Assembly: GCF_008122505.1 (NCBI RefSeq)
Contig: NZ_VSSB01000002.1
Location: 496,001 to 560,000 of the forward strand
Length of the DNA: 64,000 nt
Direction: 5' to 3'
Origin: Agromyces mariniharenae
Lineage (GTDB): Bacteria > Actinomycetota > Actinomycetes > Actinomycetales > Microbacteriaceae
This document shows positions 32,056-46,261 of this stretch, piece after piece. A program made the translations under genes and the position numbers. Below the pieces are notes generated by a model. It was given only the letters and a program-made list of their open reading frames with translations. It was not told the origin of the DNA and made no database searches. How positions within the stretch are numbered: position 1 is the first letter of the stretch; every line of letters starts with the position of its first letter.

Positions 32056-32721
32056 ATGAGCGGCCAGCAGATGCGCGTGCTCGAGGTGCTGAGCCTGCGC
32101 GAGCAGGTCGAGCGCACGCTCTCGTCGCGCATCGTGACGGGCGAGTTCGCGCCGGGCACCGTGCTGACGGTGCCGACGCTGGCGGGCGAGTTCGGCGTGA
32201 GCGCGACGCCCGTGCGCGAGGCGATGCTCAACCTGGCCCGTCGGGGGTTCCTGAGTCCGCTCCGCAACCGCGGGTTCGAGGTGACCGAGGTCTCGGACGA
32301 CGAGCTGCGCGAGCTCGGGGAGATCCGGCGGCTCCTCGAGGCGCCGCCCATGCGATCGCTCGCAGGAGCGCTGCCCGACGAGACGGTCGAACGGCTGCGG
32401 CGCCTGGCCGACGAGATCGTCCGCGCCGGCCGCGAGGGCCGCTTCGAGGACTACCTCGAGGCGGACACGACCTTTCACCTGACGCTGCTCGAGCGGACGG
32501 GGAATCGGCACCTCGTGCGGCTCGTGTCGGAGCTCCGCCAGCAGACCCGGCTGGTGGGACTCGTGAACCTGGCCGATTCGGACGAGCTGGAGAGCTCGTC
32601 GCTCGAGCACGCCGAGCTCATCCGCCTGCTCGTCGAGGGCGACGGCGAGGGTGCCGAGGCCCTCATGCGCCGGCACATCGGCCACGTGGCCGGCCTCTGG
32701 AGCGGGCGCCGGGAGGCGTAG
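32056..32721 (+). CDS. GntR family (FCD) transcriptional regulator, candidate regulator of the hydroxyproline locus
   Basis: The 221-residue protein has an N-terminal winged helix (LREQVERTLSSRIVTGEFAP, then LAGEFGVSATPVREAMLNLA) and a C-terminal FCD domain with the usual metal-binding pattern: Asp and His in EADTTFHLTLLERTGN, and His in SSLEHAELIRLL and RRHIGHVAG. FCD-type GntR proteins typically respond to amino or organic acids. It lies directly before the ABC importer, whose promoter holds a 15-bp sequence found at two further promoters of the locus. ATG 32056 follows GGGCAGG by 5 bases; GTG 32023 in frame would add 11 residues. Confidence 0.87.
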   Translation: MSGQQMRVLEVLSLREQVERTLSSRIVTGEFAPGTVLTVPTLAGEFGVSATPVREAMLNLARRGFLSPLRNRGFEVTEVSDDELRELGEIRRLLEAPPMRSLAGALPDETVERLRRLADEIVRAGREGRFEDYLEADTTFHLTLLERTGNRHLVRLVSELRQQTRLVGLVNLADSDELESSSLEHAELIRLLVEGDGEGAEALMRRHIGHVAGLWSGRREA

Positions 32722-32779: not shown

Positions 32780-32845
32780 TTGCCAAACGCTTCGCCATGA
32801 GTAATATGTCACGTACCGCCCGTAGTGATATGTCACGCATGACAT
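32780..32845 (+). promoter_or_regulatory. Promoter and tandem operators of the ABC importer operon
   Basis: A -35 box TTGCCA (32780-32785) and a -10 box TAATAT (32802-32807) are 16 bp apart. GTAATATGTCACGTA (32801-32815) overlaps the -10 box. A near copy, GTGATATGTCACGCA (32825-32839), follows 24 bp later and forms the palindrome ATGTCA-N4-TGACAT (32830-32845). Binding here would block transcription, so a repressor role for the local GntR protein is inferred. Confidence 0.65.
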
Positions 32846-32884
32846 CGCAACGGATCCCTGCAACGTCGCACAGAGGAGAATCCC

Positions 32885-34069
32885 ATGTCGTATGGACCCC
32901 GGCGCCGCACGCGCCTCCTGCAGCTCGCCGCCGGCGCGAGCCTCCTGCTGGCCATGACCGGGTGTTCCGGCGGCCTGGCCGGCGGCGGCGGCGGCGGTGG
33001 CGATGACGGCGACGGACCGATCTCGTTCGGCATGCTGGCGCCGTTCTCGGGGAGCGAGTCCGCGTTCGGCGCGTACATGCAGAACGGCGCTCAGCTCGCG
33101 GTCGACGAGTTGAACGCCGACGGCGGGGTGCTCGGCCGGGAGCTGGAACTCGTCGTCGAGGACGACGCCTGCGATGCCACGACCGCGGTCGCCGGAGCGA
33201 ACAAGCTCGTGACCGAGGGCATCACGGCTTCGGTCGGGGGGTACTGCTCCGGCGCGACCCTGCCGACCCTCCCGATCTTCGACGAGGCCGGCATCCCCAT
33301 GGTGATCCCGGCCGCGAACTCTAACGAGCTCGTGCAGGGACTGCCCGGCGTCTTCCTCATCAACGGAACGGGCACCCAGCAGGCCGCGGCCGCGGTGCAG
33401 TACGCCGAGGAGATCGGCGCGACGACGGTCGCCGCGATCGACGACGCGACCTCGTACTCGGCCGACCTCGCCGCCTCGTTCGTCGAGCAGGCCGGCGACG
33501 CCGGCCTCGAGATCGCGTTCGAGGAGACCGTGACGCCGGGGGAGAACGACTACTCGGCCGTGGCGACCGAGCTCGCGAGCGTGCAGCCCGACCTCGTCTA
33601 CTGGACCGGCTACTACCAGGAGGGCGGCCTGATCGTCCGCCAGGCGACCGACGCAGGCTACACCGGCGCGTTCCTGGTCGGCGACGGGTCGGTCGACGCG
33701 AAGTTCGCCGAGATCGCCGGTCCCGGGTACACCGACAACGTCGTCGCGACGTTCACCCAGACGCCCGACATGATCGAGGGTGCCGACCAGTGGATCGCCG
33801 ACTACTCCGAGCTCGCGGGCGAGGCACCCGGACCGTACTCGACGCAGGCCTACGACGCGGTGCGCGTCATGGCGCAGGCGATCGAGGATGCCGGCAGCAC
33901 CGACTTCGACGCGGTCGTCGCCGGCCTCGAGGGTCTGGAGGGCTTCGACACGTTCGCGGGCCCGCTGACGTTCACCGACGACCACACCCTCTCGGGCGGC
34001 GGGTTCGTGATCGTCTCGATCGATCCCGCCACGAACGCGTTCGTGCTGAAGGACGACCTGCAGGGCTGA
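32885..34069 (+). CDS. LivK-type ABC transporter substrate-binding lipoprotein
   Basis: The 394-residue protein has a signal sequence with lipobox LLAMTGC (Cys27), a glycine-rich linker and a type I periplasmic-binding fold of the branched-chain amino acid class: FGMLAPFSGSESAFGAYMQN, ELNADGGVLGRELELVVEDD, VGGYCSGATLPTLPIFDEAG, and DLVYWTGYYQEGGLIVRQA. It captures the substrate outside the cell for the LIV-type permease that follows. Given the catabolic genes downstream, the ligand is probably hydroxyproline or proline betaine-like; this is inference. AGAGGAGA precedes the ATG. Confidence 0.92.
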   Translation: MSYGPRRRTRLLQLAAGASLLLAMTGCSGGLAGGGGGGGDDGDGPISFGMLAPFSGSESAFGAYMQNGAQLAVDELNADGGVLGRELELVVEDDACDATTAVAGANKLVTEGITASVGGYCSGATLPTLPIFDEAGIPMVIPAANSNELVQGLPGVFLINGTGTQQAAAAVQYAEEIGATTVAAIDDATSYSADLAASFVEQAGDAGLEIAFEETVTPGENDYSAVATELASVQPDLVYWTGYYQEGGLIVRQATDAGYTGAFLVGDGSVDAKFAEIAGPGYTDNVVATFTQTPDMIEGADQWIADYSELAGEAPGPYSTQAYDAVRVMAQAIEDAGSTDFDAVVAGLEGLEGFDTFAGPLTFTDDHTLSGGGFVIVSIDPATNAFVLKDDLQG

Positions 34070-34074
34070 GTCGC

Positions 34075-34106
34075 CCGGGACGGGCGGCGCTCGCCGCCCG
34101 TCCCGG
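34075..34106 (+). terminator. Strong intercistronic hairpin after the substrate-binding protein gene
   Basis: The sequence CCGGGACGGGCGGCG (34075-34089), two bases, then its perfect complement (34092-34106) gives a 15-bp stem in the 64-bp gap between the binding-protein gene and the permease gene. There is no T-run. It probably stabilises the upstream mRNA or reduces read-through, so that the binding protein is made in excess of the permease. Confidence 0.65.
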
Positions 34107-34133
34107 ACCGGCACCGGAAGGAGTCACCGCACC

Positions 34134-35024
34134 GTGATGCAACTCATCTGGAACGGCCTGATCGTGGGCTCGTTCTACGCCCTCGTCGCGCTCGGCTACA
34201 GCATGGTCTACGGGATCATCAAGCTGCTGAACTTCGCGCACGGCGACATCTACATGCTCGGCGCGTTCGTCGGGTTCTTCACGCTCTCCGCGTTCGGGAT
34301 CTCGAACGAGACCTCGATCCCGCTGCTCGTCGTGATCATGCTGCTCTCGATGGTCACGACCGGCCTGATCGGCGTCGGCATCGAGCGGATCGCGTACCGT
34401 CCGCTGCGCAAGAGCCCACGGCTCGCCGTGCTGATCACCGCGATCGGCGTGTCGTTCACGCTCGAGTACGGGGTGCGCCAGATCTTCGGTCCCAATCCCG
34501 AGGCGTTCCCGATCCGCCTGGAATCGAGCGGGTTCGATTTCGCGGGCATGCGCATCACGGCTTCGCAGCTCGTGCTGGTGATCATCGCGGCGGTGCTGAT
34601 GCTCGTGCTCGCGCACATCGTCGAACGCACCCGGGAGGGTCGCGCGATGCGTGCGATCGCGCTCGACCCGCAGGGCGCGCAGCTCATGGGCGTGAACGTG
34701 AACCGGGTCATCGCCACCGTGTTCTTCATCGGCTCCGCCCTCGCCGGGGCCGCGGGCGTGATGGCCGGCGCGTACTACGGGTCGATCGACTTCCTGATGG
34801 GATTCATCATCGGGCTCAAGGCGTTCACCGCCGCGGTCATCGGCGGCATCGGCAACCTCTACGGCGCGATGCTCGGCGGGCTCCTGCTCGGCCTGCTCGA
34901 ATCGTTCGGGGCCGCCTGGTTCGGCGGCGAGTGGCGCGACGTGTTCTCGTTCGCGTTCCTGATCCTGTTCCTCACGTTCAAGCCGACGGGCCTGCTCGGC
35001 GCCCGCGTCGTGGAGAGGATGTGA
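34134..35024 (+). CDS. LivH-type ABC transporter permease
   Basis: The 296-residue membrane protein has about eight hydrophobic helices and the LivH signature: NGLIVGSFYALVALGYSMVY at the N-terminus, then GIIKLLNFAHGDIYMLGAF, and a C-terminal FTAAVIGGIGNLYGAMLGG. It forms one half of the membrane channel with the next gene product. AAGGAG (34118-34123) lies 10 bases before GTG 34134; ATG 34137 is the next codon and is equally possible. The livM-type gene begins one base after its stop. Confidence 0.93.
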   Translation: MMQLIWNGLIVGSFYALVALGYSMVYGIIKLLNFAHGDIYMLGAFVGFFTLSAFGISNETSIPLLVVIMLLSMVTTGLIGVGIERIAYRPLRKSPRLAVLITAIGVSFTLEYGVRQIFGPNPEAFPIRLESSGFDFAGMRITASQLVLVIIAAVLMLVLAHIVERTREGRAMRAIALDPQGAQLMGVNVNRVIATVFFIGSALAGAAGVMAGAYYGSIDFLMGFIIGLKAFTAAVIGGIGNLYGAMLGGLLLGLLESFGAAWFGGEWRDVFSFAFLILFLTFKPTGLLGARVVERM

Positions 35025-35025
35025 C

Positions 35026-36225
35026 ATGGCCCGCGACCTCGACCTCGCGCTGAAGCACGCGCCCCTGCGCGCGCCGGCCCCGCTGTTCGACCGTCCCCGA
35101 CCCGCGACCGGTGTCTTCACCTCGCAGAGCGGGTTCCTCCGCGCACTCGGGACCCTGGCCGTGCTGCTGCTCGCCGCGCTGCCGTTCCTGGACGCGTCCC
35201 GGTACACGATGTCGATCGCGACGAGTGCGCTGATCTACGTGATGCTGTGCATGGGCCTGAACGTCGTCGTCGGGTACGCCGGACTCCTGGACCTCGGCTA
35301 CATCGCGTTCTTCGCCGTCGGCGCCTACGTCTCGGGCATCTTCACCACCGTGCTCGGGTTCCCGATGTGGCTCGCGCTGCCGGCCACGATCGCCGCCTGC
35401 ATCGTCGCGGGCATCCTCATCGGCGCCCCGACACTGCGGCTGCGCAGCGACTACCTCGCCATCGTCACGCTCGGGTTCGGCGAGATCATCCGGATCACGG
35501 CGAACAACCTCGAGATCACCGGCGGCCCGTCAGGGATCCACGGCATCCCTTCGTGGGACTTCGGCGGCTGGAGCTTCGACGACGGCTTCACGGTCGGCGG
35601 GCTCGCGTTCCCCGGCTACGTCGTCTTCTACTACTTCGTCGCGGCCGTCGTGGTCGTCGTCGGGGTGATCGGCGCCGGCCGCCTCGCGAAGGGGAAGATG
35701 GGCCGGGCCTGGAAGGCCGTCCGCGACGACGAGGACGCCGCCGAGGCCATGGGCATCAACACCTACGTCGCAAAGATCTCCGCGTACATCATCGGCGCCG
35801 TCTGGGCGGGCATGGCGGGCCAGCTCATGGCGACCCACCTCTCCGCGATCAGCCCGAACAGCTTCCAGTTCCTCTACTCCGCGCTGATCCTCATGGCGGT
35901 CGTGCTCGGCGGCATGGGCTCGACCCCAGGCGTGATCATCGGCGCCCTGTTCGTGTCGCTGGCTCCCGAGTTGCTGCGCGACTTCGCCGAGTGGCGCTAC
36001 CTCATCTTCGGCATCCTGCTCGTCGTCGTGATGCTGTTCCGACCGTCCGGACTGTGGCCCGCCACTGCGGTCCTCCCGTGGCTCAAGCGCACGAGACCGC
36101 AGCCTCCGCCGTTCACCTCGGCGGTCGGCGCGATCGACCAGGGCGTCCCCGACGTCGAACCCAGTGTCATGGAGTCCGTCGACGGCCTGCCCGCCGCCGA
36201 TGCCGAGGAAGGGAGGCAGGCATGA
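35026..36225 (+). CDS. LivM-type ABC transporter permease
   Basis: The 399-residue membrane protein has multiple helices and the LivM signatures MGLNVVVGYAGLLDLGYIAF, TLGFGEIIRITANNLEITGG and ALILMAVVLGGMGSTPGVI. An N-terminal cytoplasmic extension of about 40 residues and a hydrophilic C-terminal tail of about 40 residues flank the core. It pairs with the LivH-type permease. The stop overlaps the start of the LivG-type ATPase gene (ATGA). Confidence 0.93.
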   Translation: MARDLDLALKHAPLRAPAPLFDRPRPATGVFTSQSGFLRALGTLAVLLLAALPFLDASRYTMSIATSALIYVMLCMGLNVVVGYAGLLDLGYIAFFAVGAYVSGIFTTVLGFPMWLALPATIAACIVAGILIGAPTLRLRSDYLAIVTLGFGEIIRITANNLEITGGPSGIHGIPSWDFGGWSFDDGFTVGGLAFPGYVVFYYFVAAVVVVVGVIGAGRLAKGKMGRAWKAVRDDEDAAEAMGINTYVAKISAYIIGAVWAGMAGQLMATHLSAISPNSFQFLYSALILMAVVLGGMGSTPGVIIGALFVSLAPELLRDFAEWRYLIFGILLVVVMLFRPSGLWPATAVLPWLKRTRPQPPPFTSAVGAIDQGVPDVEPSVMESVDGLPAADAEEGRQA

Positions 36226-37175
36226 GCGCCCTGCTCGAGGTCCGGGACCTCCGCCTGCAGTTCGGCGGCGTGAAGGCCGTCGACGGTCTCAGCTTCGAGG
36301 TCCGCGAAGGCGAGATCCTCGCCGTCATCGGCCCGAACGGCGCGGGGAAGACGAGCGCGTTCAACTGCATCTCGGCGTTCTACCTGCCCACGTCCGGGTC
36401 GGTCGTGTTCGACGGGAAGCGCATCGTGCGCGAGGTGCCGGGCTTCTGGCGCGCGCTCCGGCTCGGGCACCTGCTGCAGAGCTTCGGCTTCTACCGGGTG
36501 CTCCCGTCACGCGTCACGAAGTGGGGCATGGCCCGCACCTTCCAGAACCTGCGGCTGTTCCGCGAGCTCAGCGTGCTCGACAACGTGAAGTCCGCGATGC
36601 ACTCGATCCTCCGCGAGGGGTTCTGGTCCACGCTGCTGCACACGCCCGGGTACCGGCGGGCCGAGGAGGCGTGCGCCCGCGAGGCACGCGGATGGCTCGA
36701 CTTCGTCGGCTTCGAGGACGACGAGGACCTCTACGTCGGGCAGCTGCCCTACGGCGAGCAGCGCCGCGTCGAGATCGCCCGCGCCCTCGCCACGAGCCCG
36801 AAGCTGCTGCTGCTCGACGAACCCGCCGCGGGCCTGAACCACAACGAGAAGCAGGCGCTCATGGAACTGATCCGCCGGATCCGCGACCTCGGTGTCGCGG
36901 TCGTGCTGATCGAGCACGACATGGGCCTCATCATGGAACTCGCCGAACGCATCGTCGTGCTCAACTACGGCAGGGAGATCGCCGACGGCACGCCTGCGCA
37001 GATCAAGGCCGATCCCCTGGTCATCGAGGCGTACCTCGGCGTCGACGAGGACGAGGAGGCGATCGACGCCACGCGTCTGCGCACCGGGACCGTCTCGGCC
37101 GACGCGATCGCGGACGCGTTCGGCGCGAGCGCCGTCGGCGCGGCATCCGATGGGAAGGACGGTGGGTCGCGATGA
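36222..37175 (+). CDS. LivG-type ABC transporter ATP-binding protein
   Basis: The 317-residue ATPase has Walker A GPNGAGKT at residues 37-44, Q-loop in ARTFQNLRLFRELSVLDNV, signature LPYGEQRRVEIARALA, Walker B LLLLDEPAAGLNHNE and the H-loop VLIEHDMG. It is longer than usual LivG proteins (about 255): about 25 extra residues (from EVPGFWRALRLGHLL to LPSRV) lie between the P-loop strand and the Q-loop, and about 45 acidic residues extend the C-terminus. It overlaps its neighbours on both sides by 4 bp. Confidence 0.92.
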   Translation: MSALLEVRDLRLQFGGVKAVDGLSFEVREGEILAVIGPNGAGKTSAFNCISAFYLPTSGSVVFDGKRIVREVPGFWRALRLGHLLQSFGFYRVLPSRVTKWGMARTFQNLRLFRELSVLDNVKSAMHSILREGFWSTLLHTPGYRRAEEACAREARGWLDFVGFEDDEDLYVGQLPYGEQRRVEIARALATSPKLLLLDEPAAGLNHNEKQALMELIRRIRDLGVAVVLIEHDMGLIMELAERIVVLNYGREIADGTPAQIKADPLVIEAYLGVDEDEEAIDATRLRTGTVSADAIADAFGASAVGAASDGKDGGSR

Positions 37176-37882
37176 CCGCGCTGGAGGTGCAGGACGTCGA
37201 CGTCTACTACGGCCGCGTGCACGCGCTGCGGCGGCTGAGCTTCTCCGTCGGCGACGGCGAGATCGTGTGCCTGCTCGGCAACAACGGCGCGGGCAAGTCG
37301 ACCACCATGAACCTGCTGTCGGGGCTCGTCCGCCCGAAGGACGGCGCGGTGCGGTGGAACGGCATGGACCTCGCGACGGCGAAGCCGTGGGACATCGTCT
37401 CGGCCGGGCTCATCCACGTGCCGGAGGGGCGCCGCATCTTCTCGACCATGACCGTGCACGAGAACCTGCTGCTCGGCGGGTATGCGGTCCGCGACCGGCG
37501 CGTCGTCGACCAACGCATCGCGCAGGTCTACGAGCTCATGCCGCGGCTGGCCGAGCGCCGGAAGCAGCAGGGCGGCACGCTCTCGGGCGGGGAGCAGCAG
37601 ATGGTCGCGATCGGCCGTGCGATCGTGGGCGGTCCGAAGCTGCTGCTGCTCGACGAGCCGTCGATGGGACTCGCCCCGCTGGTGGTCAAGCAGGTCATGG
37701 AGGTCATCGCCGCCGTGAACGCGCAGGGGACCACCGTCCTGCTCGTCGAGCAGAACGCCAGGGCCGCGCTGAAGATCGCGCACCGCGCCTACGTCGTCGA
37801 GACCGGGACCGTCACGCTGTCGGGATCGGCCGCCGAGCTCGCGCGGGACGCGCGCGTGGTCGAGGCCTACCTCGGGGCATGA
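37172..37882 (+). CDS. LivF-type ABC transporter ATP-binding protein
   Basis: The 236-residue ATPase has Walker A GNNGAGKST at residues 36-44, the LivF-specific PEGRRIFSTMTVHENLLLGG, signature LSGGEQQMVAIGRAIV, Walker B LLLLDEPSMGLAP and H-loop VLLVEQNA. Length is normal. It completes the five-gene importer. A terminator-like hairpin starts 10 bp after its stop. Confidence 0.94.
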   Translation: MTALEVQDVDVYYGRVHALRRLSFSVGDGEIVCLLGNNGAGKSTTMNLLSGLVRPKDGAVRWNGMDLATAKPWDIVSAGLIHVPEGRRIFSTMTVHENLLLGGYAVRDRRVVDQRIAQVYELMPRLAERRKQQGGTLSGGEQQMVAIGRAIVGGPKLLLLDEPSMGLAPLVVKQVMEVIAAVNAQGTTVLLVEQNARAALKIAHRAYVVETGTVTLSGSAAELARDARVVEAYLGA

Positions 37883-37891
37883 TGGCGGAAG

Positions 37892-37914
37892 GCACCCGCG
37901 GACGCCGCGGGTGC
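37892..37914 (+). terminator. Terminator-like hairpin after the ABC importer operon
   Basis: GCACCCGCGG (37892-37901), loop ACG, and the perfect complement CCGCGGGTGC (37905-37914) form a 10-bp stem just after the livF-type stop. It separates the importer operon from the promoter of the dehydrogenase operon, whose -10 box begins 20 bp further on. Confidence 0.65.
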
Positions 37915-37932
37915 GCTTCCGGTCGAGCATAG

Positions 37933-37947
37933 GTAATATGTCACGTA
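37933..37947 (+). promoter_or_regulatory. Operator and -10 box of the hydroxyproline catabolic operon
   Basis: GTAATATGTCACGTA is repeated exactly here, with TAATAT (37934-37939) in the -10 position relative to the ATG at 37967 and a GAGAGGAG ribosome binding site at 37952-37959. No clear -35 box is visible at 16-18 bp, where the right arm of the preceding terminator lies. The inner 13 bp (ATATGTCACGTAT) are nearly palindromic. Confidence 0.6.
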
Positions 37948-37966
37948 TCACTGAGAGGAGCCGGGC

Positions 37967-39124
37967 ATGCGCGTCGTCGTGATCGGTGCGGGCGCCATCG
38001 GCGCGTCCTGCGCGCTCGCGCTCGCCGAGGCCGGCGCCGAGGTCGTCGTCGCCGACCGCGCGGGCGTGGCGGCGGAGACCTCGAGTCGCTGCGAGGGCAA
38101 CATCCTCGTGTCCGACAAGGCGCCCGGCGCCGAGGCCGACCTGGCGATCGCCGCTCGCGAGGCCTGGCGCGACCTCGCCGCCCGGCTCGACGCCGACCGC
38201 GCGCCGGGGCAGCCCGCCACCGAGTTCGAGGCGAAGGGCGGCGTGGTCGTCGCCTTCGCGGGCGGCACCACCGCACTCGAGGCGTTCGCCGCGTCGCAGC
38301 GCGCGATCGGCATCCGCGCCGACGCGGTGTCCTCCGAGGACCTCGGTCGCCTCGAGCCCCACCTGAGCCCCGAGGTCGCGAGCGGCATCCACTACCCCGA
38401 GGACGCCCAGGTGCAGCCGAGCCTCGCCACCCAGGCGATGCTCGCCAGGGCGCGCCGCCTCGGCGCCGAGTTCCGCATCACCGAGGTCACGGGTCCCGTG
38501 CACGACGGCGATCGCCTGGCCGGCGTGGTCACGCCCGAGGGCGCGATCCTCGGCGACGCGGTCGTGAACTGCGCGGGCCCGTGGGCCGGCCGCGTCGCGG
38601 ACCTGCTCGGCGCACGCCTCGACATCCGACCCCGGCGGGGCGCCATCCTGGTCACCACTCCCATGCCGCAGCGGGTGTTCCACAAGGTGTACGACGCCGA
38701 CTACGTCGGTGCGGTCGGATCGAGCGACGCCGCGCTCCAGACCTCGACCGTCGTGGAGTCGACGCCGGCCGGCACCGTGCTGATCGGCTCGAGCCGCGAG
38801 CGCGTGGGCTTCTCGACGGCCCACACGCTCGCGCCGCTCGCCGAGATCGCGGCGAAGGCGACGCGGCTCTTCCCGTTCCTCGCCGACACGATGCTGCTGC
38901 GCAGCTACGTCGGCTTCCGGCCGTACACGCCCGACCACCTGCCGGCCATCGGCGCCGACGGCCGCGTGGGCGGGCTGTTCCACGCGGCCGGCCACGAGGG
39001 CGCCGGCATCGGCCTCGCCCCGACGACCGGCCAGCTCGTCGCGCACGCCGTGCTCGGCACGCCCGCACCGCTCGACCCCGCACCGTTCCTGCCCACCCGG
39101 GCGAGCCTCGAGGAGGCCGCGTGA
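37967..39124 (+). CDS. D-hydroxyproline dehydrogenase beta subunit (DadA-like FAD oxidoreductase)
   Basis: The 385-residue flavoprotein belongs to the glycine oxidase / D-amino acid dehydrogenase family, with the FAD motif VVIGAGAIGASCALAL at residues 4-19, RRGAILVTTPMP mid-protein, and GLFHAAGHEGAGIGLAPTTG near the C-terminus. With the small ferredoxin-like and the larger FAD/iron-sulfur proteins that follow, it matches the three-subunit dehydrogenases that oxidise cis-4-hydroxy-D-proline to pyrroline-4-hydroxy-2-carboxylate. Relatives act on cyanide-precursor glycine or opines, so the substrate rests on context. GTGA overlap couples it to the next gene. Confidence 0.85.
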   Translation: MRVVVIGAGAIGASCALALAEAGAEVVVADRAGVAAETSSRCEGNILVSDKAPGAEADLAIAAREAWRDLAARLDADRAPGQPATEFEAKGGVVVAFAGGTTALEAFAASQRAIGIRADAVSSEDLGRLEPHLSPEVASGIHYPEDAQVQPSLATQAMLARARRLGAEFRITEVTGPVHDGDRLAGVVTPEGAILGDAVVNCAGPWAGRVADLLGARLDIRPRRGAILVTTPMPQRVFHKVYDADYVGAVGSSDAALQTSTVVESTPAGTVLIGSSRERVGFSTAHTLAPLAEIAAKATRLFPFLADTMLLRSYVGFRPYTPDHLPAIGADGRVGGLFHAAGHEGAGIGLAPTTGQLVAHAVLGTPAPLDPAPFLPTRASLEEAA

Positions 39125-39363
39125 CCATCCGCATCGCGGTCGACGGCACCGAGCTCGAGGGGCGCGACGGCCAGACCATCGCCGGCGTGCTGATCGGCGC
39201 GGGCCGGCGCAGCTGGCGCTCGGCGGCCGGCGCGGAGCGCGGCGTCTTCTGCGGCATCGGCGTCTGCCAGGACTGCCTCGTCACCGTCAACGGCGTCGAG
39301 GGCGTCCGAGCCTGCCAGCGCACCGCCAGAGACGGCGACGTGATCGAGCGGGAGGCGCGATGA
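39121..39363 (+). CDS. D-hydroxyproline dehydrogenase gamma subunit, (2Fe-2S) protein
   Basis: The 80-residue protein is a small ferredoxin-like electron carrier. Four cysteines, Cys44, Cys49, Cys52 (FCGIGVCQDC) and Cys65 (RACQR), match the plant-type [2Fe-2S] pattern of the gamma subunits of hydroxyproline, opine and HcnABC-type dehydrogenases. The GTG start overlaps the beta-subunit stop, and the stop overlaps the alpha-subunit ATG, so all three subunits are translationally coupled. Confidence 0.87.
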   Translation: MTIRIAVDGTELEGRDGQTIAGVLIGAGRRSWRSAAGAERGVFCGIGVCQDCLVTVNGVEGVRACQRTARDGDVIEREAR

Positions 39364-40736
39364 GCCGGCGCGTCGTCATCCTCGGTGCGGGCCCCGCGGG
39401 CCTCGCCGCCGCACAGGCCGCGATCGCGCACGGTGCGGACGTCACCGTGCTCGACGAGGGGGAGCGTCCTGGCGGCCAGTTCTGGCGCCACCACGATGCA
39501 CTCACCGATCCGCGCATGCAGCACCAGTGGCCGCGCTTCGAGCGACTCCGAGGAGCCCTCGACCGGGCCGAGGTACACGCACAGGCGAGCGTCTGGCACG
39601 TCGAGACCGACGGAGGCCTGCGCATGCACGCGCTCGTCGGCCCCGCCGACGCGGCCGGCCGCACGGCCCTCACGGTCGAGGCCGATGCGCTCGTCCTCGC
39701 CACGGGTGCGCACGACCGTGCCCTGCCCGTGCCCGGGTGGACCCTCCCCGGCGTGATCACCGCCGGCGCCGCGCAGGCGCTCGCGAAGCGCGACGGCGTC
39801 GCCCCCGGGCGTCGGACCGTCGTCGCGGGCGCCGGGCCGTTCCTGCTGCCGGTCGCCGCGAGCATCGGCCTCGCCGGCGGCAGCGTCGCCGAGGTCGTCG
39901 AGGCCGTGGGCGTCGGCGCGATCGCGCGCGGCTGGGGCCGCAGCCCGTGGCGACTCGCGGGTGCGGCAGGCAAGGCGGGCGAGCTCACGGAGTACCTCGG
40001 CGACCTGATCCGCCACCGGACGCCCTACCGTTTCGGCAGCGCTGTCACGCGCATCCACGGGGTCGGTACGGTCGAGGGAGCGACCATCCAGCGCGTCGAC
40101 GCCGACTGGCGTCCGATCCCGGGAACCGAGCGCGTCGTCGAATGCGACTCGGTCGCCCTCGGCCACGGCTTCACCCCCCGCCTCGAGGCGGCGATCCAGG
40201 CCGGATGCGCGATCTCGCCCGACCGGTTCGTCGAGGTCGACGGGCGACAGGCCACCTCGGTGCCCGGCGTCTTCGCGGCGGGCGAGGTCACCGGCATCGC
40301 CGGCGCCGACGCGGCCCTCGCCGAGGGCGCGGTCGCCGGATTCCTCGCCGCCGGCGGCGAGCTCGGCGACCCGCGACTGCGCCGTGTCGTCGACGCGCGG
40401 CGTCGGATGCACGCCTTCGCGGAACGACTCGCCACCCACGCCATCCGATCGGGATGGACGGCCTGGCTCGACGACGACACGATCGTCTGCCGCTGCGAGT
40501 CCGTCACGCGTGCGCGCATCGCCGAGTACGCCGACGCCTCGAGCCGTGGCGTGCGCCTCGCGACCCGTGCCGGCCTCGGCGCGTGCCAGGGTCGCACCTG
40601 CGGCCGCAGCGTCGAGGCGCTCGTCGCGGCATCCGTCGACTACGACCAGCGGCCGGTGCTCTCCTCGATCCGCATCGGGGAGCTCGCCGGCCTCCACCAC
40701 ACCCCAGACCGAATCAAGCACCAGGAGCAGGAATGA
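39360..40736 (+). CDS. D-hydroxyproline dehydrogenase alpha subunit (FAD and BFD-like iron-sulfur)
   Basis: The 458-residue protein has an N-terminal dinucleotide-binding motif VVILGAGPAGLAAAQAAI, a GGQFWR flavin segment, and a second nucleotide-binding region (VVAGAGPFLLPVAASIGLAG). The C-terminal domain is BFD-like, with four cysteines at 377, 379, 409 and 414 (CRC and GACQGRTCG) for a [2Fe-2S] cluster. This is the domain order of HcnB / LhpB-type subunits, which pass electrons from the beta subunit onward. It overlaps the DapA-like gene by 4 bp. Confidence 0.87.
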   Translation: MSRRVVILGAGPAGLAAAQAAIAHGADVTVLDEGERPGGQFWRHHDALTDPRMQHQWPRFERLRGALDRAEVHAQASVWHVETDGGLRMHALVGPADAAGRTALTVEADALVLATGAHDRALPVPGWTLPGVITAGAAQALAKRDGVAPGRRTVVAGAGPFLLPVAASIGLAGGSVAEVVEAVGVGAIARGWGRSPWRLAGAAGKAGELTEYLGDLIRHRTPYRFGSAVTRIHGVGTVEGATIQRVDADWRPIPGTERVVECDSVALGHGFTPRLEAAIQAGCAISPDRFVEVDGRQATSVPGVFAAGEVTGIAGADAALAEGAVAGFLAAGGELGDPRLRRVVDARRRMHAFAERLATHAIRSGWTAWLDDDTIVCRCESVTRARIAEYADASSRGVRLATRAGLGACQGRTCGRSVEALVAASVDYDQRPVLSSIRIGELAGLHHTPDRIKHQEQE

Positions 40737-41653
40737 CCGAGCAGAACATGGACCTCGGCGGCGTCGTCGTCGCCACCGCCCTCGCCTTCAAGGAGGACCC
40801 GTCGGCCCCGGCCGGCCTCGCCGTCGACTACGACCGGTTCGCCGAGCACGTCGACTTCCTCATGTCGAACGGATGCCGCGGCGTCGGCCCGAACGGATCG
40901 CTCGGCGAGTACTCGTCCCTCACCGACGAGGAGCGACGGAAGGTGATCCAGGTCGCCGTCGAGGCGGTCGACGGGCGCGGCATCGTCATCGCCGGCGCGC
41001 ACGGCGTCGGCAGCCACCAGGCGCGCAAATGGGCGGAGCTCGCTCGCGAGGACGGCGCCGACGGCGTGCTGCTGCTACCGCCGACCATGTACCGGGCCAA
41101 CGAGGGCGAGGTCATCGCGCACTTCGAGGAGGTCGCCAAGGTCGGCCTGCCGATCATGGCCTACAACAACCCGTTCGACACGAAGGTCGACCTCGTGCCC
41201 TCGATGGTCGCGAAGCTCGCCGAGATCCCCGAGGTCGTGGCCATCAAGGAGTTCTCGGGCGACGTGCGTCGCGTCTACGAGATCAAGGAGCTGTGCGACA
41301 TCGACATCATCGCCGGTGCCGACGACGTGCTCTTCGAGCTCATGGTGAACGGCGCGGTCGGCTGGTTCGCCGGCTACCCGAACGCGTTCCCCCGCGAGGC
41401 GGTCGAGCTCTACGACCTCTGCGCCGACGGCAAGTGGCACGAGGCGAAGGCGCTCTACGAGCAGCTCGTCGCGGTGTTCCGCTGGGACTCGCGCACCGAG
41501 TTCGTGCAGGCCATCAAGCTCTCGATGGACATCTGCGGCAACTCGTACGGCGGCCCGACGCGTCCGCCGCGCGGCCCGCTCTCGGCGGAGCAGCGCGCGC
41601 AGGTGACCGCCGACACCGAGCGCGCGCTCGCGGCACTCGCGGCGGCCCGCTGA
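40733..41653 (+). CDS. DapA-family enzyme, likely pyrroline-4-hydroxy-2-carboxylate deaminase
   Basis: The 306-residue protein has the dihydrodipicolinate synthase / N-acetylneuraminate lyase barrel. The Schiff-base Lys172 is in VVAIKEFSGD and the catalytic Tyr144 in MAYNNPFD; the substrate-binding GPNGSLGEYSSLT replaces the GTTGE loop of true DapA. In hydroxyproline pathways this paralogue deaminates pyrroline-4-hydroxy-2-carboxylate to 2-oxoglutarate semialdehyde. The assignment depends on its place between the dehydrogenase and the semialdehyde dehydrogenase. Its stop and the next ATG share one base (TGATG). Confidence 0.85.
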   Translation: MTEQNMDLGGVVVATALAFKEDPSAPAGLAVDYDRFAEHVDFLMSNGCRGVGPNGSLGEYSSLTDEERRKVIQVAVEAVDGRGIVIAGAHGVGSHQARKWAELAREDGADGVLLLPPTMYRANEGEVIAHFEEVAKVGLPIMAYNNPFDTKVDLVPSMVAKLAEIPEVVAIKEFSGDVRRVYEIKELCDIDIIAGADDVLFELMVNGAVGWFAGYPNAFPREAVELYDLCADGKWHEAKALYEQLVAVFRWDSRTEFVQAIKLSMDICGNSYGGPTRPPRGPLSAEQRAQVTADTERALAALAAAR

Positions 41654-42654
41654 TGCGCACCCGTCGGGTCGTCTCGGCCGTCGACTCGCACACCGAGGGC
41701 ATGCCGACCCGCGTCGTCACGGGCGGCGTCGGACGGATCCCCGGCTCGACGATGAACGAGCGGCGGCTGTGGGCGATCGAGCACCTCGACGGCCTGCGCG
41801 GGTTCCTCATGAACGAGCCGCGCGGCCACGCCGCCATGTCGGGCGCGCTGCTGCAGCCGCCCGCGCGCGACGACGCCGACTGGGGCGTGGTGTTCGTCGA
41901 GGCGAGCGGCTTCCTGCCGATGTGCGGGCACGGCACGATCGGCGTGGCCACGGTGCTCGTCGAGACGGGCATGGTCGAGGTGACCGAGCCGGTCACCGAG
42001 ATCCGGCTCGACGTGCCCGCCGGCCTCGTCGTCGCGCGCGTCGAGGTCGAAGGCGGTCGCGCGAAGCGCGTCACGATCGAGAACGTGCCGAGCTTCGTCG
42101 AGCGCATCGACGAGACGATCGAGGTGCCGGGCTACGGCGAGGTGCCGTACTCGATCGCGTTCGGGGGCAACTTCTACGCGCTCGTCGACCTCGACGACGT
42201 CGGGCTGCCGTTCGACCGGGAGCGACAGGACGACATCCTGCGGGCCGGACTCGCGATCATGGACGCGATCAACGAGCAGAAGCCGCCGAAGCATCCCGAG
42301 CTCTCGGGGGCCGATCACGTGCACCACGTCGAGTTCATCGCGCCGGGTTCCGATGCGGTCCGCTCGCGGCACGCGATGGCGATCCATCCCGGATGGTTCG
42401 ACCGCTCGCCGTGCGGCACCGGCACGAGCGCGCGCATGGCCGAGCTCCATGCTCGCGGCGAGCTCGCGCTCGAGACCGACTTCGTGAACGAGTCGTTCAT
42501 CGGCAGCGAGTTCACCGGTCGCCTGCTGCGCGAGACCGAGGTCGGTGGCGTGCCCGCGGTCGTGCCGACCATCTCGGGCCGTGCCTGGGTCACCGGCATG
42601 GGCCAGTACCTCCTCGACGAGGACGACCCCTTCCCCGAGGGCTTCGTCTTCTGA
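41653..42654 (+). CDS. 4-hydroxyproline 2-epimerase (proline racemase family)
   Basis: The 333-residue protein is a cofactor-independent proline-racemase-family enzyme with both catalytic cysteines: Cys91 in PMCGHGTIG and Cys254 in SPCGTGTSARMA. Two cysteines mean racemase or epimerase chemistry, not dehydration. The N-terminus VVSAVDSHTEGMPTRVV is typical of 4-hydroxyproline epimerases. It would convert trans-4-hydroxy-L-proline to cis-4-hydroxy-D-proline, the substrate of the dehydrogenase encoded upstream. Proline racemase activity cannot be excluded. Confidence 0.87.
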   Translation: MRTRRVVSAVDSHTEGMPTRVVTGGVGRIPGSTMNERRLWAIEHLDGLRGFLMNEPRGHAAMSGALLQPPARDDADWGVVFVEASGFLPMCGHGTIGVATVLVETGMVEVTEPVTEIRLDVPAGLVVARVEVEGGRAKRVTIENVPSFVERIDETIEVPGYGEVPYSIAFGGNFYALVDLDDVGLPFDRERQDDILRAGLAIMDAINEQKPPKHPELSGADHVHHVEFIAPGSDAVRSRHAMAIHPGWFDRSPCGTGTSARMAELHARGELALETDFVNESFIGSEFTGRLLRETEVGGVPAVVPTISGRAWVTGMGQYLLDEDDPFPEGFVF

Positions 42655-42685
42655 CCGACCACCCACGCCGACCCCAGGAGCATCG

Positions 42686-44167
42686 ATGGACACCGACCGG
42701 ATCGCCGCGGACGCGGCGCGCGCTGCACGACCCTTCGCCGAGACCGAACCCCGCGCACGGGCGCAGGCGCTCGTCGCCGTGGCCGACGCGCTCGACGCCG
42801 CCTCCGACGAGCTCATCGCCATCGCGACGCGTGAGACCGGGCTGGCCCAGGGCCGGCTGGTGGGGGAGGTGCGCCGCACCACCAACCAGCTGCGACTCTT
42901 CGCCGAGGTCATCGTCGACGGCGCCTACCTCGACGCCCGCATCGACGCCGCCGACCCCGACTACGTGATCGGACCGCGGCCCGACGTGCGCCGCGTGCTC
43001 GAGCCCGTCGGGCCGGTGCTCAACTTCGCCGCGTCGAACTTCCCGTTCGCGTTCTCCGTCGCGGGCGGCGATTCGGCGGCCGCCCTCGCCGCGGGGTGCC
43101 CGGTCGTCGTGAAGGCGCACTCCGGCCATCCCGAGCTCTCCCGCCGCACGGCGGAGGTCGTCACGGCGGCCCTCGCCGCGGCGGGCATGCCCGACGGCGT
43201 CTTCCAGCTCGTCGAGGGCCAGGAGCGCGGCGTCGCGCTCCTGCGCGACGACCGCATCCGCGCAGGGGCGTTCACCGGCTCGACGCACGTGGGACGCCTG
43301 CTCGCGGACATCGCGGCGTCGCGCCCGCGCCCCATCCCGTTCTACGGCGAGCTCGGCAGCGTGAACCCCGTGTACGCGACCACGGGCGCGGTGGCCGCCG
43401 ACCCCGGGCTGCTGCAGGGCTTCCTCGGCTCGGTCTCCGGCTCGGCCGGGCAGCTCTGCACGAAGCCCGGCTTCCTGTTCGTCCCGGCCGACGCCGAGCT
43501 CGAACCGGTGGCGGATGCCGCGGCGGCCGTGCCCGAGCATCGCCTGCTCAATCCCGGCATCGGCCGAGCCTTCGAGGAGCGCCGCAGCGCGGTCCTCGGG
43601 GCTCCGGGAGTGACCGTCCTCGCCGAGGGAGCGGTCCGGGTCGACGAGGCCGACCAGCGCTTCGCGACGCCCACCGTCGTCGAGGTGGACGTGGACACGC
43701 TGCTCGCGCACCGCGACGAGCTGCTCGAGGAGTCCTTCGGGCCCTTGTCGATCCTCGTGCGCTACGACGATGCCGACGTGCTGCCGGAACTGCACCGCGA
43801 GCTGTTCCCGGGCAACCTCACCTCGACCGTGCACGCGAACGACCTCGAGCTCGCCGACGGTCGGCTCGCGGACTTGGTCGACGCGCTGGCCGAGACGAGC
43901 GGGCGCGTGCTGTTCGGCGGTTGGCCGACGGGCGTGTCGGTGACGAGCGCCATGCAGCACGGCGGCCCGTTCCCGGCGACGACGACGGATGCCACGAGCG
44001 TCGGCACCGCGGCCATCACCCGATTCCTGCGCGGCGTCGCCTACCAGGGCGCGCCGCAGTCGCTGCTCCCGCCGCCCCTGCGCGACGACAATCCGTGGGG
44101 CGTGCCGCAGCGCCGCAGCGACGCCGGCCGCTCCGCCGGGTGGGGGAGCCTCGCGGGCGAGTACTGA
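42686..44167 (+). CDS. Aldehyde dehydrogenase, likely 2-oxoglutarate semialdehyde dehydrogenase
   Basis: The 493-residue NAD(P)-dependent aldehyde dehydrogenase has the nucleophile Cys258 in AGQLCTKPG and the general base Glu222 in GELGSVNPVY, a pattern of the 2-oxoglutarate semialdehyde dehydrogenase branch. VLNFAASNFPFAFSVAGGD near residue 113 is also typical. It would oxidise the product of the DapA-like enzyme to 2-oxoglutarate, feeding the citric acid cycle. It lies 31 bp after the epimerase with CCAGGAG as ribosome binding site, and ends at a strong shared terminator. Confidence 0.9.
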   Translation: MDTDRIAADAARAARPFAETEPRARAQALVAVADALDAASDELIAIATRETGLAQGRLVGEVRRTTNQLRLFAEVIVDGAYLDARIDAADPDYVIGPRPDVRRVLEPVGPVLNFAASNFPFAFSVAGGDSAAALAAGCPVVVKAHSGHPELSRRTAEVVTAALAAAGMPDGVFQLVEGQERGVALLRDDRIRAGAFTGSTHVGRLLADIAASRPRPIPFYGELGSVNPVYATTGAVAADPGLLQGFLGSVSGSAGQLCTKPGFLFVPADAELEPVADAAAAVPEHRLLNPGIGRAFEERRSAVLGAPGVTVLAEGAVRVDEADQRFATPTVVEVDVDTLLAHRDELLEESFGPLSILVRYDDADVLPELHRELFPGNLTSTVHANDLELADGRLADLVDALAETSGRVLFGGWPTGVSVTSAMQHGGPFPATTTDATSVGTAAITRFLRGVAYQGAPQSLLPPPLRDDNPWGVPQRRSDAGRSAGWGSLAGEY

Positions 44168-44180
44168 GCGGACGGATGCC

Positions 44181-44215
44181 GCGTGGTGCTCCGGGCGACG
44201 ACCGGGGCACCACGC
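44181..44215. terminator. Bidirectional terminator between the two hydroxyproline operons
   Basis: GCGTGGTGC (44181-44189) pairs perfectly with GCACCACGC (44207-44215). Inside, CCGG (44191-44194) pairs with CCGG (44202-44205) around a 7-base loop, with one mismatched pair between the stems. It sits in the 50-bp gap between convergent stops. Confidence 0.75.
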
Positions 44216-44217
44216 AC

Positions 44218-45201
44218 TCACCGCAGCGAGAAGCCGTCGGCGAGCGGGTCGCCCTCGTCGAGCTCGAACTCGCAGCGACCGACCCGGTACGCCTGGCCCG
44301 TCACCTCGGGGATCACGCCGACTGCGGTGCGCTCGGCGACGCGTGCGAGGAAGCGGGTCCCGATGATCGAGTCGTGCGTGAGGACCTCGCCCTCGCCGAG
44401 CACGGCGGTGTGCGCGAGCAGTGCGACGCGCGCCGCGGTGCCCGATCCGCAGGGGCTGCGGTCGACCTCGCCATCGGCGAAGACGGTCACGTTGCGCTGC
44501 CACGGTCCGGACTCGGTGCGACCCAGGTCGTCGACCCAGATCGTGCCGTAGACGCCCGACAGGCGTTCGTCGTCGACCTGCGCTGCCGGGTGCTCGTCCA
44601 ACGCCCACTTGATCTCGCGTCCGAGCCGGATGAGCTCGCTCGTGTGCTCGGGCGCGACCGACAGGCCGACGGCAGCGGCCGGCAGGGTCGCGTACACGGC
44701 GCCGCCGAAGACGAGGTCCACGTCGACCTCGCCTCGGCTCGTCTCCAGGCGGATGCCGCGCTCGAGCACGCGCGACTCGACGTTGCGGAACACGACGCCG
44801 GTCGTGCGACCGCCCTCGCGCTGCACCCGTGCCTGCACGCGGCCGCTGGGGACGTCGATCGTCACGACGGCCTCGCCGTCGTCGGGCGCCGAGACGCGGC
44901 CGGTGCGCACCGCCCACGCGCCGAGCGCGATGGTGCCGTGCCCGCAGGCGGTCGAGAAGCCGTCCTTGTGCCAGAACAGCACGCCGAACTCGGCTCCGTC
45001 GTCGTCGGGCGGGGTCAGGAACCCGCCGTACATGTCGTCGTGCCCGCGGGGTTCCAGGCAGAGGAATCGGCGCACCGCATCGGCCTCGCCCGTCATCGCG
45101 TGCACGCGCCGCTCGGCGACGGTCGCCCCCTCGGTCGCGACGCCGTCGACGATGCGGAACGGCTCGCCCGCGGTGTGCCAGTCCTCGGTGCTCCAGCGCA
45201 T
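44218..45201 (-). CDS. Second proline-racemase-family enzyme
   Basis: The 327-residue protein is distinct from the epimerase on the other strand. Its N-terminus STEDWHTAGEPFRIV resembles the trans-3-hydroxy-L-proline dehydratase branch. However both catalytic positions are cysteine: Cys86 in STACGHGTIAL and Cys251 in SPCGSGTAARV, which normally indicates racemase or epimerase activity; dehydratases replace one of them. It is coupled to an ornithine-cyclodeaminase-family gene (TGATG), the usual partner for dehydratase-generated pyrroline-2-carboxylate. The activity therefore remains open: a second epimerase or a dehydratase that kept both cysteines. Confidence 0.85.
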   Translation of the reverse strand: MRWSTEDWHTAGEPFRIVDGVATEGATVAERRVHAMTGEADAVRRFLCLEPRGHDDMYGGFLTPPDDDGAEFGVLFWHKDGFSTACGHGTIALGAWAVRTGRVSAPDDGEAVVTIDVPSGRVQARVQREGGRTTGVVFRNVESRVLERGIRLETSRGEVDVDLVFGGAVYATLPAAAVGLSVAPEHTSELIRLGREIKWALDEHPAAQVDDERLSGVYGTIWVDDLGRTESGPWQRNVTVFADGEVDRSPCGSGTAARVALLAHTAVLGEGEVLTHDSIIGTRFLARVAERTAVGVIPEVTGQAYRVGRCEFELDEGDPLADGFSLR

Positions 45202-46163
45202 CAGTCCGTCCCTCCGGCGCCCCCGGCGCCCGTCTCGAGTGCGAGCCTCGCCACCACGAGGTCCTGCCACCCCATGCCGCAGGTCTTGAACACGCGCGGC
45301 CGATCGAAGCGCACGGGGACGCGGCCGTCGAGGATGCGCGCCATCGGCACGACGGCGTCCGCGGAGAGGTGCCCCTCGGCGACCGCCATGATGACGTCGC
45401 CCGCCTCCGCACGGGCGATCCGCTCGGTCTCGACGATGACCTGGGCGCGCGCGAGCAGGGCGCCCGGGAGCTCCCGCCGGTCGGGCTCGTGGGAGCCGAC
45501 GGCGACGATCGCGGCGCGGTCGGCGACGAGGTCGGCGGAGAAGAGCGGCTCGGCCGCCGTGGTGGCGCACACGACGAGGTCGGCGTCGGCGACGTCGGCC
45601 GCAGTGCCCACGTCGATCTCCGCCATGGGGGCGTAGGCGCGGGCGGCCTCGACGGCGCGCCCGGCCTTCGCGCGGTCACGGCCGACGAAGCGCACGCGAC
45701 GCAGTCCGCGGATGGCGGCGATCGCCTCCACGTGGCGGACGCCCTGCGGGCCCGTGCCGAACACGACGAGCGACGAGGCGTCGGGCGTCGCGGCGACGTC
45801 GAGCACCGCCGCCGAGACCGCGGGCGTGCGCAGGCTCGTGAGCGCCGTGCCGTCGACGAGCGCGATCGGGGCCAGCGTGTCGCCGTCGAGCACGACGTAG
45901 ACCGCCTGGATGCGCTCGAGGCCGCGCGCGGGATTGCCGGGGGCGACGGTCGCGAGCTTCTGGCCGGCGAGGCCGTCGATCGCGGAGGGCATGAGCAGCA
46001 GCTGGCCGTTCGGCACGTCGACGATGGCGCGCGCCGGATCGTGATCGGGATCGAAGCCGTCGCGTACCAGCTGCCGGATGGCGCGGATGGCGGCGCGCAT
46101 CGTGACGCGGCGCCTGAGGGTGTCGCCGTCGATGAGCTGGATGGAGTCGAGCACGCCGGACAT
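45201..46163 (-). CDS. Ornithine cyclodeaminase / mu-crystallin family, likely pyrroline-2-carboxylate reductase
   Basis: The 320-residue protein has the OCD-family Rossmann domain with VVFGTGPQGVRHVEAIAAI around residue 128, the substrate-binding DVPNGQLLLMPSAIDGLAGQ near 48-68, and GSHEPDRRELPG. Bacterial members next to hydroxyproline genes reduce pyrroline-2-carboxylate to L-proline with NAD(P)H. It is the first gene of a two-gene minus-strand operon. TAGACT ends 6 bases before the ATG, with no ribosome binding site, so the message is probably leaderless. Confidence 0.85.
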   Translation of the reverse strand: MSGVLDSIQLIDGDTLRRRVTMRAAIRAIRQLVRDGFDPDHDPARAIVDVPNGQLLLMPSAIDGLAGQKLATVAPGNPARGLERIQAVYVVLDGDTLAPIALVDGTALTSLRTPAVSAAVLDVAATPDASSLVVFGTGPQGVRHVEAIAAIRGLRRVRFVGRDRAKAGRAVEAARAYAPMAEIDVGTAADVADADLVVCATTAAEPLFSADLVADRAAIVAVGSHEPDRRELPGALLARAQVIVETERIARAEAGDVIMAVAEGHLSADAVVPMARILDGRVPVRFDRPRVFKTCGMGWQDLVVARLALETGAGGAGGTD

Positions 46164-46169
46164 GAGTGC

Positions 46170-46201
46170 AGTCTAGGGAGTAATGTGTAATATGTCACGT
46201 A
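46170..46201 (-). promoter_or_regulatory. Promoter and operator of the OCD/racemase operon
   Basis: On the minus strand, -35 GTGACA (46198-46193) is followed by 17 bp and -10 TAGACT (46175-46170), then 6 bases to the ATG. The third exact copy of GTAATATGTCACGTA (46187-46201, inverted relative to this operon) covers the -35 box. This ties the operon to the same regulator as the importer and the dehydrogenase operon. Confidence 0.65.
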
Positions 46202-46261
46202 GCACCCGTGCTCCTGATCATGGACCGGTCGACGCAGGCGTGACCATCGACGTCCGGCGGA

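Follow-up and report, generated by a model that had tools for sequence, protein, structure and literature searches.

A 19-bp inverted repeat with a one-base GT-AC spacer as the probable HypR operator of an Agromyces hydroxyproline locus

A 64-kb stretch of the Agromyces mariniharenae genome (64,000 bp in full, here called the window) carries a repeated sequence in front of each of three transcription units of a hydroxyproline locus, and this sequence very probably serves as operator for a HypR repressor of the actinobacterial type, whose gene lies in the same locus at 32056-32721. HypR was described in 2019 in Streptomyces coelicolor, where this zinc-binding FadR-subfamily GntR regulator (SCO6294) represses the L-hydroxyproline (L-Hyp) operon SCO6289-6293 (PMC6608401). 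The window has a G+C content of 72.7% and lies in a genome of 4.08 Mb in three contigs. The operator forms an inverted repeat of 19 bp, GTAATATGT-C-ACATATTAC, in which one arm is strict and the other relaxed. Four copies of it stand in the locus:

32801..32819, + strand: operator O1, before the importer operon; GTAATATGT-C-ACGTACCGC, left arm 9/9 and right arm 5/9 of the ideal, score 24.5 with a symmetric position weight matrix (PWM)
32825..32843, + strand: operator O2, weaker and in tandem with O1; GTGATATGT-C-ACGCATGAC, arms 8/9 and 6/9, PWM 21.8
37933..37951, + strand: operator O3, before the dehydrogenase (catabolic) operon; GTAATATGT-C-ACGTATCAC, arms 9/9 and 7/9, PWM 31.9
46187..46205, + strand: operator O4, before the leftward unit of an ornithine cyclodeaminase (OCD) family gene and a second racemase gene; GTAATATGT-C-ACGTAGCAC, arms 9/9 and 6/9, PWM 28.0

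All four contain ATATGTCAC, which holds the HypR core ATGTCAC. O1 and O2 lie 24 bp apart from centre to centre; the distance from operator to start codon is 15 bp for O3 (dehydrogenase) and 23 bp for O4 (OCD). A second operator copy ahead of the importer gene is also present in one of the related loci discussed below (L107) and not in two others (L109 and L111).

The original prediction had placed an exact 15-mer, GTAATATGTCACGTA, at 32801-32815, 37933-37947 and 46187-46201, with a 13/15 copy (two mismatches) at 32825-32839, and had seen it nowhere else in the window. A pattern search of the 64 kb returned exactly these positions, all on the + strand, and allowing up to three mismatches still gave four matches, where 0.04 are expected (100 shuffles, largest count 1); for exact copies the chance expectation in 64 kb is 1.8e-6. 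The original prediction had also raised the concern that the motif might be scattered through the genome, which it is not. A whole-genome pattern search found no further copy of the 15-mer at up to two mismatches, and at up to three it found the four window copies and three 3-mismatch matches elsewhere, with four matches to the reversed control. The inner 12-mer, GTAATATGTCAC, matched nine times at up to two mismatches (reversed control, five): three exact copies and one with a single mismatch at the locus, and five 2-mismatch copies elsewhere. At these settings, matches outside the locus that might have marked additional regulon members are about as frequent as those of the reversed controls (3 versus 4 for the 15-mer and 5 versus 5 for the 12-mer), and the open reading frames (ORFs) around the five off-locus 12-mer matches gave no ground for promoting them. 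The outcome for the window is a clean local regulon of three units, pattern search having found no other strong site in the genome.

We define the operator as a 19-bp inverted repeat because the flanking columns mirror the left arm and the symmetry peaks at the central C. A first set, drawn from 40 family stretches around regulator orthologues (one only 3.6 kb long) together with the window, gave 37 sites, after removal of redundancy, that differ from GTAATATGTCAC at one position at most; here conserved bases extend beyond the 12-mer, and the mirrored base is the commonest in six of the seven outer columns, the exception being column +4, where C (21) exceeds T (15). The second set came from 120 loci and the window, in which 71 exact 12-mer sites reduce to 35 non-redundant ones. 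In this set the mirrored base is commonest in all seven columns from +3 to +9, none of which was used for selection (A 0.66, T 0.51, A 0.71, T 0.66, T 0.54, A 0.57 and C 0.51), and a centre search places the symmetry best on the central C, with an excess of 0.368 against 0.156 for the next centre. An alternative was attractive at first, namely that the true symmetry is a shorter 12-bp repeat, GTRAYA-TRTYAC, inside GTAATATGTCAC, with half-sites further apart (GT-N8-AC): read by eye, GTAATATGTCAC is self-complementary at 8 of 12 positions and the second copy, GTGATATGTCAC, at 10 of 12. The centre search rejected it, since symmetry does not extend outward from the 12-bp centre and the flank columns fit the C-centred repeat, and some relatives carry near-perfect C-centred repeats (GTAATATGTTACATATTAG in L068; L111, score 40.1). 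We regard this shorter repeat as very improbable. The near-palindrome around GT-C-AC noticed in the original prediction is real and longer than claimed, and its departure from the GT-N3-AC of classical FadR sites also holds, the centre search giving a one-base spacer that differs likewise from the GT-N2-AC of proteobacterial HypR.

At 46180-46205, around O4, registers overlap: GTAATGTGT is followed by GTAATATGTCAC at a 7-bp offset, and the register at 46180 scores 22.9. A similar arrangement occurs in L107 and L109, between the dehydrogenase and dapA genes. We considered an accessory half-site 7 bp upstream as a general feature and found no support for it in the aligned flank columns of exact 12-mer sites. 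A little over 200 bp downstream of O4 (region 46187-46434) lies a gene in rightward orientation, identified by eye as rpsP-like (ribosomal protein S16).

Across genomes, the site co-occurs and co-locates with relatives of the regulator. Of 296 evenly sampled genomes of the class, 20 have the exact 12-mer and none its reversed pattern; the regulator (E<=1e-40) is present in 64, and 17 genomes have both (Fisher p 5e-10). Fully 25 of the 29 exact 12-mer sites in this sample lie within 15 kb of a regulator gene. In a family sample of 199 genomes, of which 44 have the regulator, the 15-mer occurs 17 times at up to one mismatch, and 14 of these copies are linked to the regulator. When 120 regulator-centred loci (2.30 Mb) were scored with the symmetric matrix at a threshold of at least 19, 191 sites were found, against 1 in the reversed sequences, and 105 of the 120 loci were positive; a hold-out matrix built from L067-L106 alone found sites in 62 of the 80 other loci and in 2 of 80 when reversed. 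In several genera the operator also stands ahead of genes of the same kinds. Among 218 sites with flanking ORFs, from L067-L186 and L196-L213 (some of them overlapping), 160 have a homologue of one of the window's hyp genes beside them (first labels: HypO_C 55, GntR 28, DapA 24, SBP 21, Fer2 15, Rac2 7, Rac1 4, ALDH 3, HypO_B 2 and OCD 1; SBP, substrate-binding protein).

A direct bridge to an experimentally defined site comes from Streptomyces. The footprint of S. coelicolor HypR holds TACAATGTCAC, and a seven-site logo reads CTNTGC(A/C)ATGTCAC, with a symmetry that the authors called not clear (PMC6608401). Among 28 Streptomyces and Kitasatospora loci (from the best 80 named loci of 592 relatives), TACAATGTCAC stands upstream of the HypR orthologue in 20 and TACGATGTCAC in 5, within about 260 bp of the aligned start.

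The GntR/FCD gene that the original prediction placed next to the first operator copy is indeed there:

32056..32721, + strand: HypR-type regulator, GntR winged helix (PF00392, 55.2 bits) and FCD domain (PF07729, 85.7 bits); start codon chosen by us

With residues numbered from the one coded at 32053, immediately before the chosen start codon, the protein has N72, R92, E96, D138, F141, H142, E185, H186 and H208 at the spacing of S. coelicolor HypR, and I in place of L at 209; eight of the nine metal and pocket residues listed for HypR (R92 to L209) are identical. D138, H142, H186 and H208 are invariant in 24 aligned regulator sequences. The closest named relative, among the best 80 of 592, is from Agromyces lapidis (83% identity), and a PDB sequence search listed 11 sequences, with 7xp0 first and then the TM0439-type entries 3fms and 3sxy. 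By the residues quoted in PMC6608401 and by the Streptomyces loci, the window regulator is most likely of the actinobacterial HypR type. The co-occurrence and co-location of site and regulator, together with these residues, support the earlier suggestion that one repressor would govern all three units.

It could be argued that the operator is genuine and that another transcription factor is its main binder, the product of the adjacent gntR controlling something else. Three genomes of the class sample have the exact 12-mer and no regulator match, and a genome of the same genus (G079) encodes two regulators of HypR type, both with sites no more than about 10 kb away. Against this, the window genome has a single regulator match at E<=1e-30 (14 of 25 candidates scored), site and regulator are linked both in the class sample and in the 120 loci, and the footprint sequence is found identically in the loci of Streptomyces orthologues. 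A different main binder appears very unlikely to us.

The two HypR-type regulators of G079 (loci L067 and L086) are 76% and 54% identical to that of the window, and the operators within about 10 kb of each include exact 12-mers. Cross-regulation between the two is possible.

Several observations weigh against assigning the repeat to HypR. Of the 64 class genomes that have the regulator, as many as 47 are without an exact 12-mer, behind which variant sites or non-HypR paralogues may lie, and the exact 12-mer occurs in the three genomes mentioned above that have no regulator match (G215, G366 and G387). Looser operator matches are noisy and non-specific: the 15-mer at up to two mismatches is found in 66 of the 199 genomes of the family sample (32 of the 44 that have the regulator and 34 that lack it, Fisher p 1e-9), its reversed control in 40 (5 with the regulator, p 0.14), and the 12-mer at up to one mismatch in 95. 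The main matrix was trained on the loci that it scored, three hold-out loci (L118, L136 and L183) are duplicates of training regions and a fourth, L130, overlaps one in part, and 15 of the 120 loci have no site scoring at least 19, among them Streptomyces loci of the GTACAATGTCAC form and short contigs. The kinship to SCO6294 rests on the residues quoted in PMC6608401 and on the Streptomyces loci, and we infer binding and repression in the window organism from sequence. Finally, the window gntR promoter is without a good operator, although S. coelicolor hypR is autoregulated. The best candidate is

32016..32034, + strand: weak candidate autoregulatory site before gntR; GTACGATGTGCCGCATGAT, PWM 7.3, not above the best chance scores of the 64-kb null

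which resembles GTACGATGTCAC upstream of gntR in some Streptomyces and may be a decayed or weak autoregulatory site. In two close relatives the gntR-upstream sites are better (L108, 21.7; L112, 25.1).

The original prediction had the 15-mer overlapping the -10 boxes of the importer and dehydrogenase operons and the -35 box of the OCD unit, a claim that stands in part. TTGCCA-16-TAATAT is present at 32780 (O1) and GTGACA-17-TAGACT at 46198-46170 on the minus strand (O4), but the boxes are largely made of operator letters. At O3 the TAATAT is present, but it is part of the operator and no -35 box is recognised among the hexamers 15-19 bp before it (GCGCTT, TGCGCT, GTGCGC, GGTGCG and GGGTGC). TAATAT and GTGACA are weak as independent promoter evidence because both are conserved operator letters, and our promoter reading is tentative for this reason and because of the missing -35 box at O3. 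The same two hexamer pairs could also suggest that the repeat is a shared promoter element (a TAATAT -10 and a TGTCAC/GTGACA -35), read by a dedicated sigma factor or belonging to generic promoters, and not a repressor site. This we consider very improbable: the conserved unit is a 19-bp inverted repeat, it is found in either orientation relative to its target gene, it shows no -35 box at the dehydrogenase site and it tracks the FCD regulator, and HypR of S. coelicolor protects a related sequence in footprints (PMC6608401).

The operator assignment suggests a mechanism. A HypR dimer most likely binds the 19-bp repeat GTAATATGT-N-ACATATTAC with its central GT-N-AC and one-base spacer. HypR on O1/O2 (a tandem that may be used cooperatively), O3 and O4 would cover the core promoter or start region, exclude RNA polymerase and block initiation at three units, holding shut the ABC importer, the operon for D-hydroxyproline dehydrogenase, deaminase, epimerase and semialdehyde dehydrogenase, and the OCD/racemase-2 side unit. 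HypR would be released by a small acid derived from hydroxyproline, a ligand that the metal of the FCD pocket probably coordinates. In S. coelicolor, L-Hyp induces the genes in vivo, L-Hyp, D-Hyp and L-Pro produce no change in HypR binding in vitro (electrophoretic mobility shift assay for L-Hyp and D-Hyp), and the authors suspect an organic ligand bound through zinc (PMC6608401). Cis/trans-hydroxyproline, proposed earlier as the ligand, is doubtful because L-Hyp and D-Hyp left HypR binding unchanged in that assay.

Pfam and NCBIfam scans assigned the genes of the locus to families as follows, the importer permeases and ATPases being named by eye from their translations:

32885..34069, + strand: importer substrate-binding protein, Peripla_BP_6, branched-chain amino-acid type (Pfam/NCBIfam)
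34134..37882, + strand: importer permease and ATPase ORFs: LivH-like 34134-35024, LivM-like 35026-36225, a LivG-like frame ending at 37175 and a LivF-like frame ending at 37882
37967..39124, + strand: FAD (DAO) subunit of a probable three-subunit D-hydroxyproline dehydrogenase (Pfam; order as in SCO6289-6291)
39085..39363, + strand: [2Fe-2S] subunit, Fer2_4 (Pfam); 39085 marks where the translated frame opens and was not chosen as a start codon
39360..40736, + strand: pyridine nucleotide-disulphide/BFD subunit, Pyr_redox_2/BFD (Pfam)
40736..41653, + strand: DapA-family protein (PF00701), probable 1-pyrroline-4-hydroxy-2-carboxylate (Pyr4H2C) deaminase; counterpart SCO6292
41656..42654, + strand: proline racemase family protein with a Cys/Cys pair, probable 4-hydroxyproline 2-epimerase (Pfam/NCBIfam); counterpart SCO6293
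42683..44167, + strand: aldehyde dehydrogenase (PF00171), probable alpha-ketoglutaric semialdehyde dehydrogenase by inferred role
44218..45213, - strand: second proline racemase family protein, with a Cys90/Cys253 pair (Pfam/NCBIfam)
45201..46163, - strand: OCD/mu-crystallin family protein, possibly a pyrroline-2-carboxylate reductase (best NCBIfam match 180 bits, cut-off 322)

LivH, LivM and LivF relatives adjoin the substrate-binding protein in other loci. From 37967 on, the run of five genes that starts with DAO and ends with the first racemase matches SCO6289-SCO6293 of S. coelicolor in content and order, and by gene family and order the targets in the locus are L-Hyp catabolic genes. The two racemase genes are the sole PF05544 matches over cut-off in the window genome; the same search gave matches in three control genomes, none of them Streptomyces. 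For the second racemase the best NCBIfam match is a 3-Hyp dehydratase (280.8 bits, cut-off 540), and we assign it no substrate because the protein keeps the Cys/Cys pair, which goes with characterised racemases and epimerases, while 3-Hyp dehydratases have Cys/Thr and Ser/Thr (PMC4113996).

The locus might instead serve proline or another imino acid, for the first racemase falls under both relevant NCBIfam cut-offs (360 of 556 bits for proline racemase and 327 of 376 for 4-Hyp epimerase). However, gene content and order are those of the L-Hyp operon SCO6289-6293, deletion of the epimerase gene in S. coelicolor abolished growth on L-Hyp and left growth on proline intact (PMC6608401), and relatives also have the operator ahead of genes assigned to GH127, the family whose characterised HypBA1 members release arabinose from Ara-Hyp. 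A substrate other than 4-hydroxyproline is very unlikely in our estimation.

The genes that follow the operator in relatives hint at a wider HypR regulon for hydroxyproline-rich proteins. Pfam was run on 20 of 38 candidate downstream ORFs, picked by a length and distance rule, and on 10 ORFs of L086, from the same genus; 2 of the 20 scanned candidates had no Pfam match. Operator-linked ORFs encode GH127 beta-L-arabinofuranosidase (L086, L121, L196, L204 and L205), aminopeptidase P of family M24 (L079, site 8053; L092, site 5220), peptide-type SBP_bac_5 proteins (L079, L120 and L141), hydantoinase/oxoprolinase (L070 and L206), Peripla_BP_4 (L070, L126 and L206), a sodium:alanine symporter (L200), an MFS transporter (L203) and an MR/MLE enzyme (L127). 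An operator-like site at L211 8376, not near gntR, precedes an X-Pro dipeptidyl peptidase gene.

HypR-type operators, often in tandem, stand before GH127 genes in L086, L121, L196-L198, L204, L205 and L214-L219; most of these genes lie about 10 kb from the HypR-type gntR, and that of L121 under 1 kb. In the family sample, 16 of 134 GH127 genes are within 15 kb of a HypR-type gene, where about 0.45 would be expected. An operator scoring above 21 occurs within 600 bp upstream of 13 of these 16 and of 1 of 13 unlinked controls, which were hand-picked from 118 unlinked genes and not random; the 16 genes come in part from closely related genomes (G043/G115; G050/G120/G175; G034/G109/G166; G085/G148), which leaves fewer independent cases. 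No operator was found within 600 bp of the HypR-linked GH127 genes of G179, G101 and G021, nor of the window genome's own GH127 gene (G000:C1:2220755). The unlinked GH127 gene G043:C4:349149 (L233) carries a strong operator (score 23.7) and is a possible distant target.

GH127 enzymes of the HypBA1 type release arabinose from Ara-Hyp of extensin-type proteins (PMC6085000), and the operators before GH127 genes suggest control of extensin-type glycoprotein use. We give an even chance to the broader proposal that HypR is, across Actinomycetota, the switch of hydroxyproline-rich protein scavenging. One 19-bp GT-N1-AC operator would then tie GH127 enzymes, X-Pro/X-Hyp peptidases and importers of peptides and amino acids to hydroxyproline breakdown, plant-associated members would sense the imino acid and not arabinose, and the window would represent the importer-plus-catabolism branch. 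In the literature we found no report of a regulon joining GH127, hydroxyproline and GntR (wider matches were judged on titles and abstract openings, best matches only). Relative to the literature found, the putative GH127, peptidase and importer targets appear new for HypR and are the strongest new lead, a comparative one, to come from this analysis. If true, these candidate targets (GH127, aminopeptidase P, X-Pro peptidase and peptide importers) would link the use of plant hydroxyproline-rich glycoproteins to hydroxyproline sensing. In Bifidobacterium, BauR1 and BauR2 control hypBA1 and the uptake of beta-arabino-oligosaccharides from hydroxyproline-rich glycoproteins; they are LacI-family regulators, whereas the GH127 genes of the relatives described here are tied to a hydroxyproline-type GntR operator (PMC5928203).

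Among GntR systems, the classical FadR-subfamily operators, TKGT-N3-ACMA, share with the window an AT-rich inverted repeat with central GT and AC and an FCD regulator (PMC4494728). The spacing in that subfamily is 3 in most groups and 2 in several, and we found no spacing of 1, as in the window, named in that survey. A spacer shorter than the named ones raises the structural question of how the FCD dimer is seated on DNA. The proteobacterial HypR regulons resemble the window in placing hydroxyproline genes under GntR-family control, with ornithine cyclodeaminase genes as predicted members in some species (PMC5343134), and differ in a GT-AC spacing of 2 (PMC4494728) as opposed to 1.

The closest counterpart is S. 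coelicolor HypR. The two systems have in common a FadR-subfamily GntR regulator with the same metal and pocket residues, a core ATGTCAC with GT-N1-AC, a three-subunit D-Hyp dehydrogenase, a deaminase and an epimerase as targets, and some sites over the -10 box or transcription start. The S. coelicolor targets include collagenase and 2-oxoglutarate dehydrogenase genes; no further site was found in the window genome, where those genes were not searched for. Unlike S. coelicolor, the window has site-bearing units for an ABC importer, an in-operon semialdehyde dehydrogenase and an OCD/racemase pair, and no clear autoregulatory site. The kind of system was thus already known from S. coelicolor in 2019, and its operator is defined more sharply here: in place of a logo of one Streptomyces regulator whose symmetry was not clear, the 19-bp repeat GTAATATGT-C-ACATATTAC, with its one-base spacer, can be searched for in many genomes.

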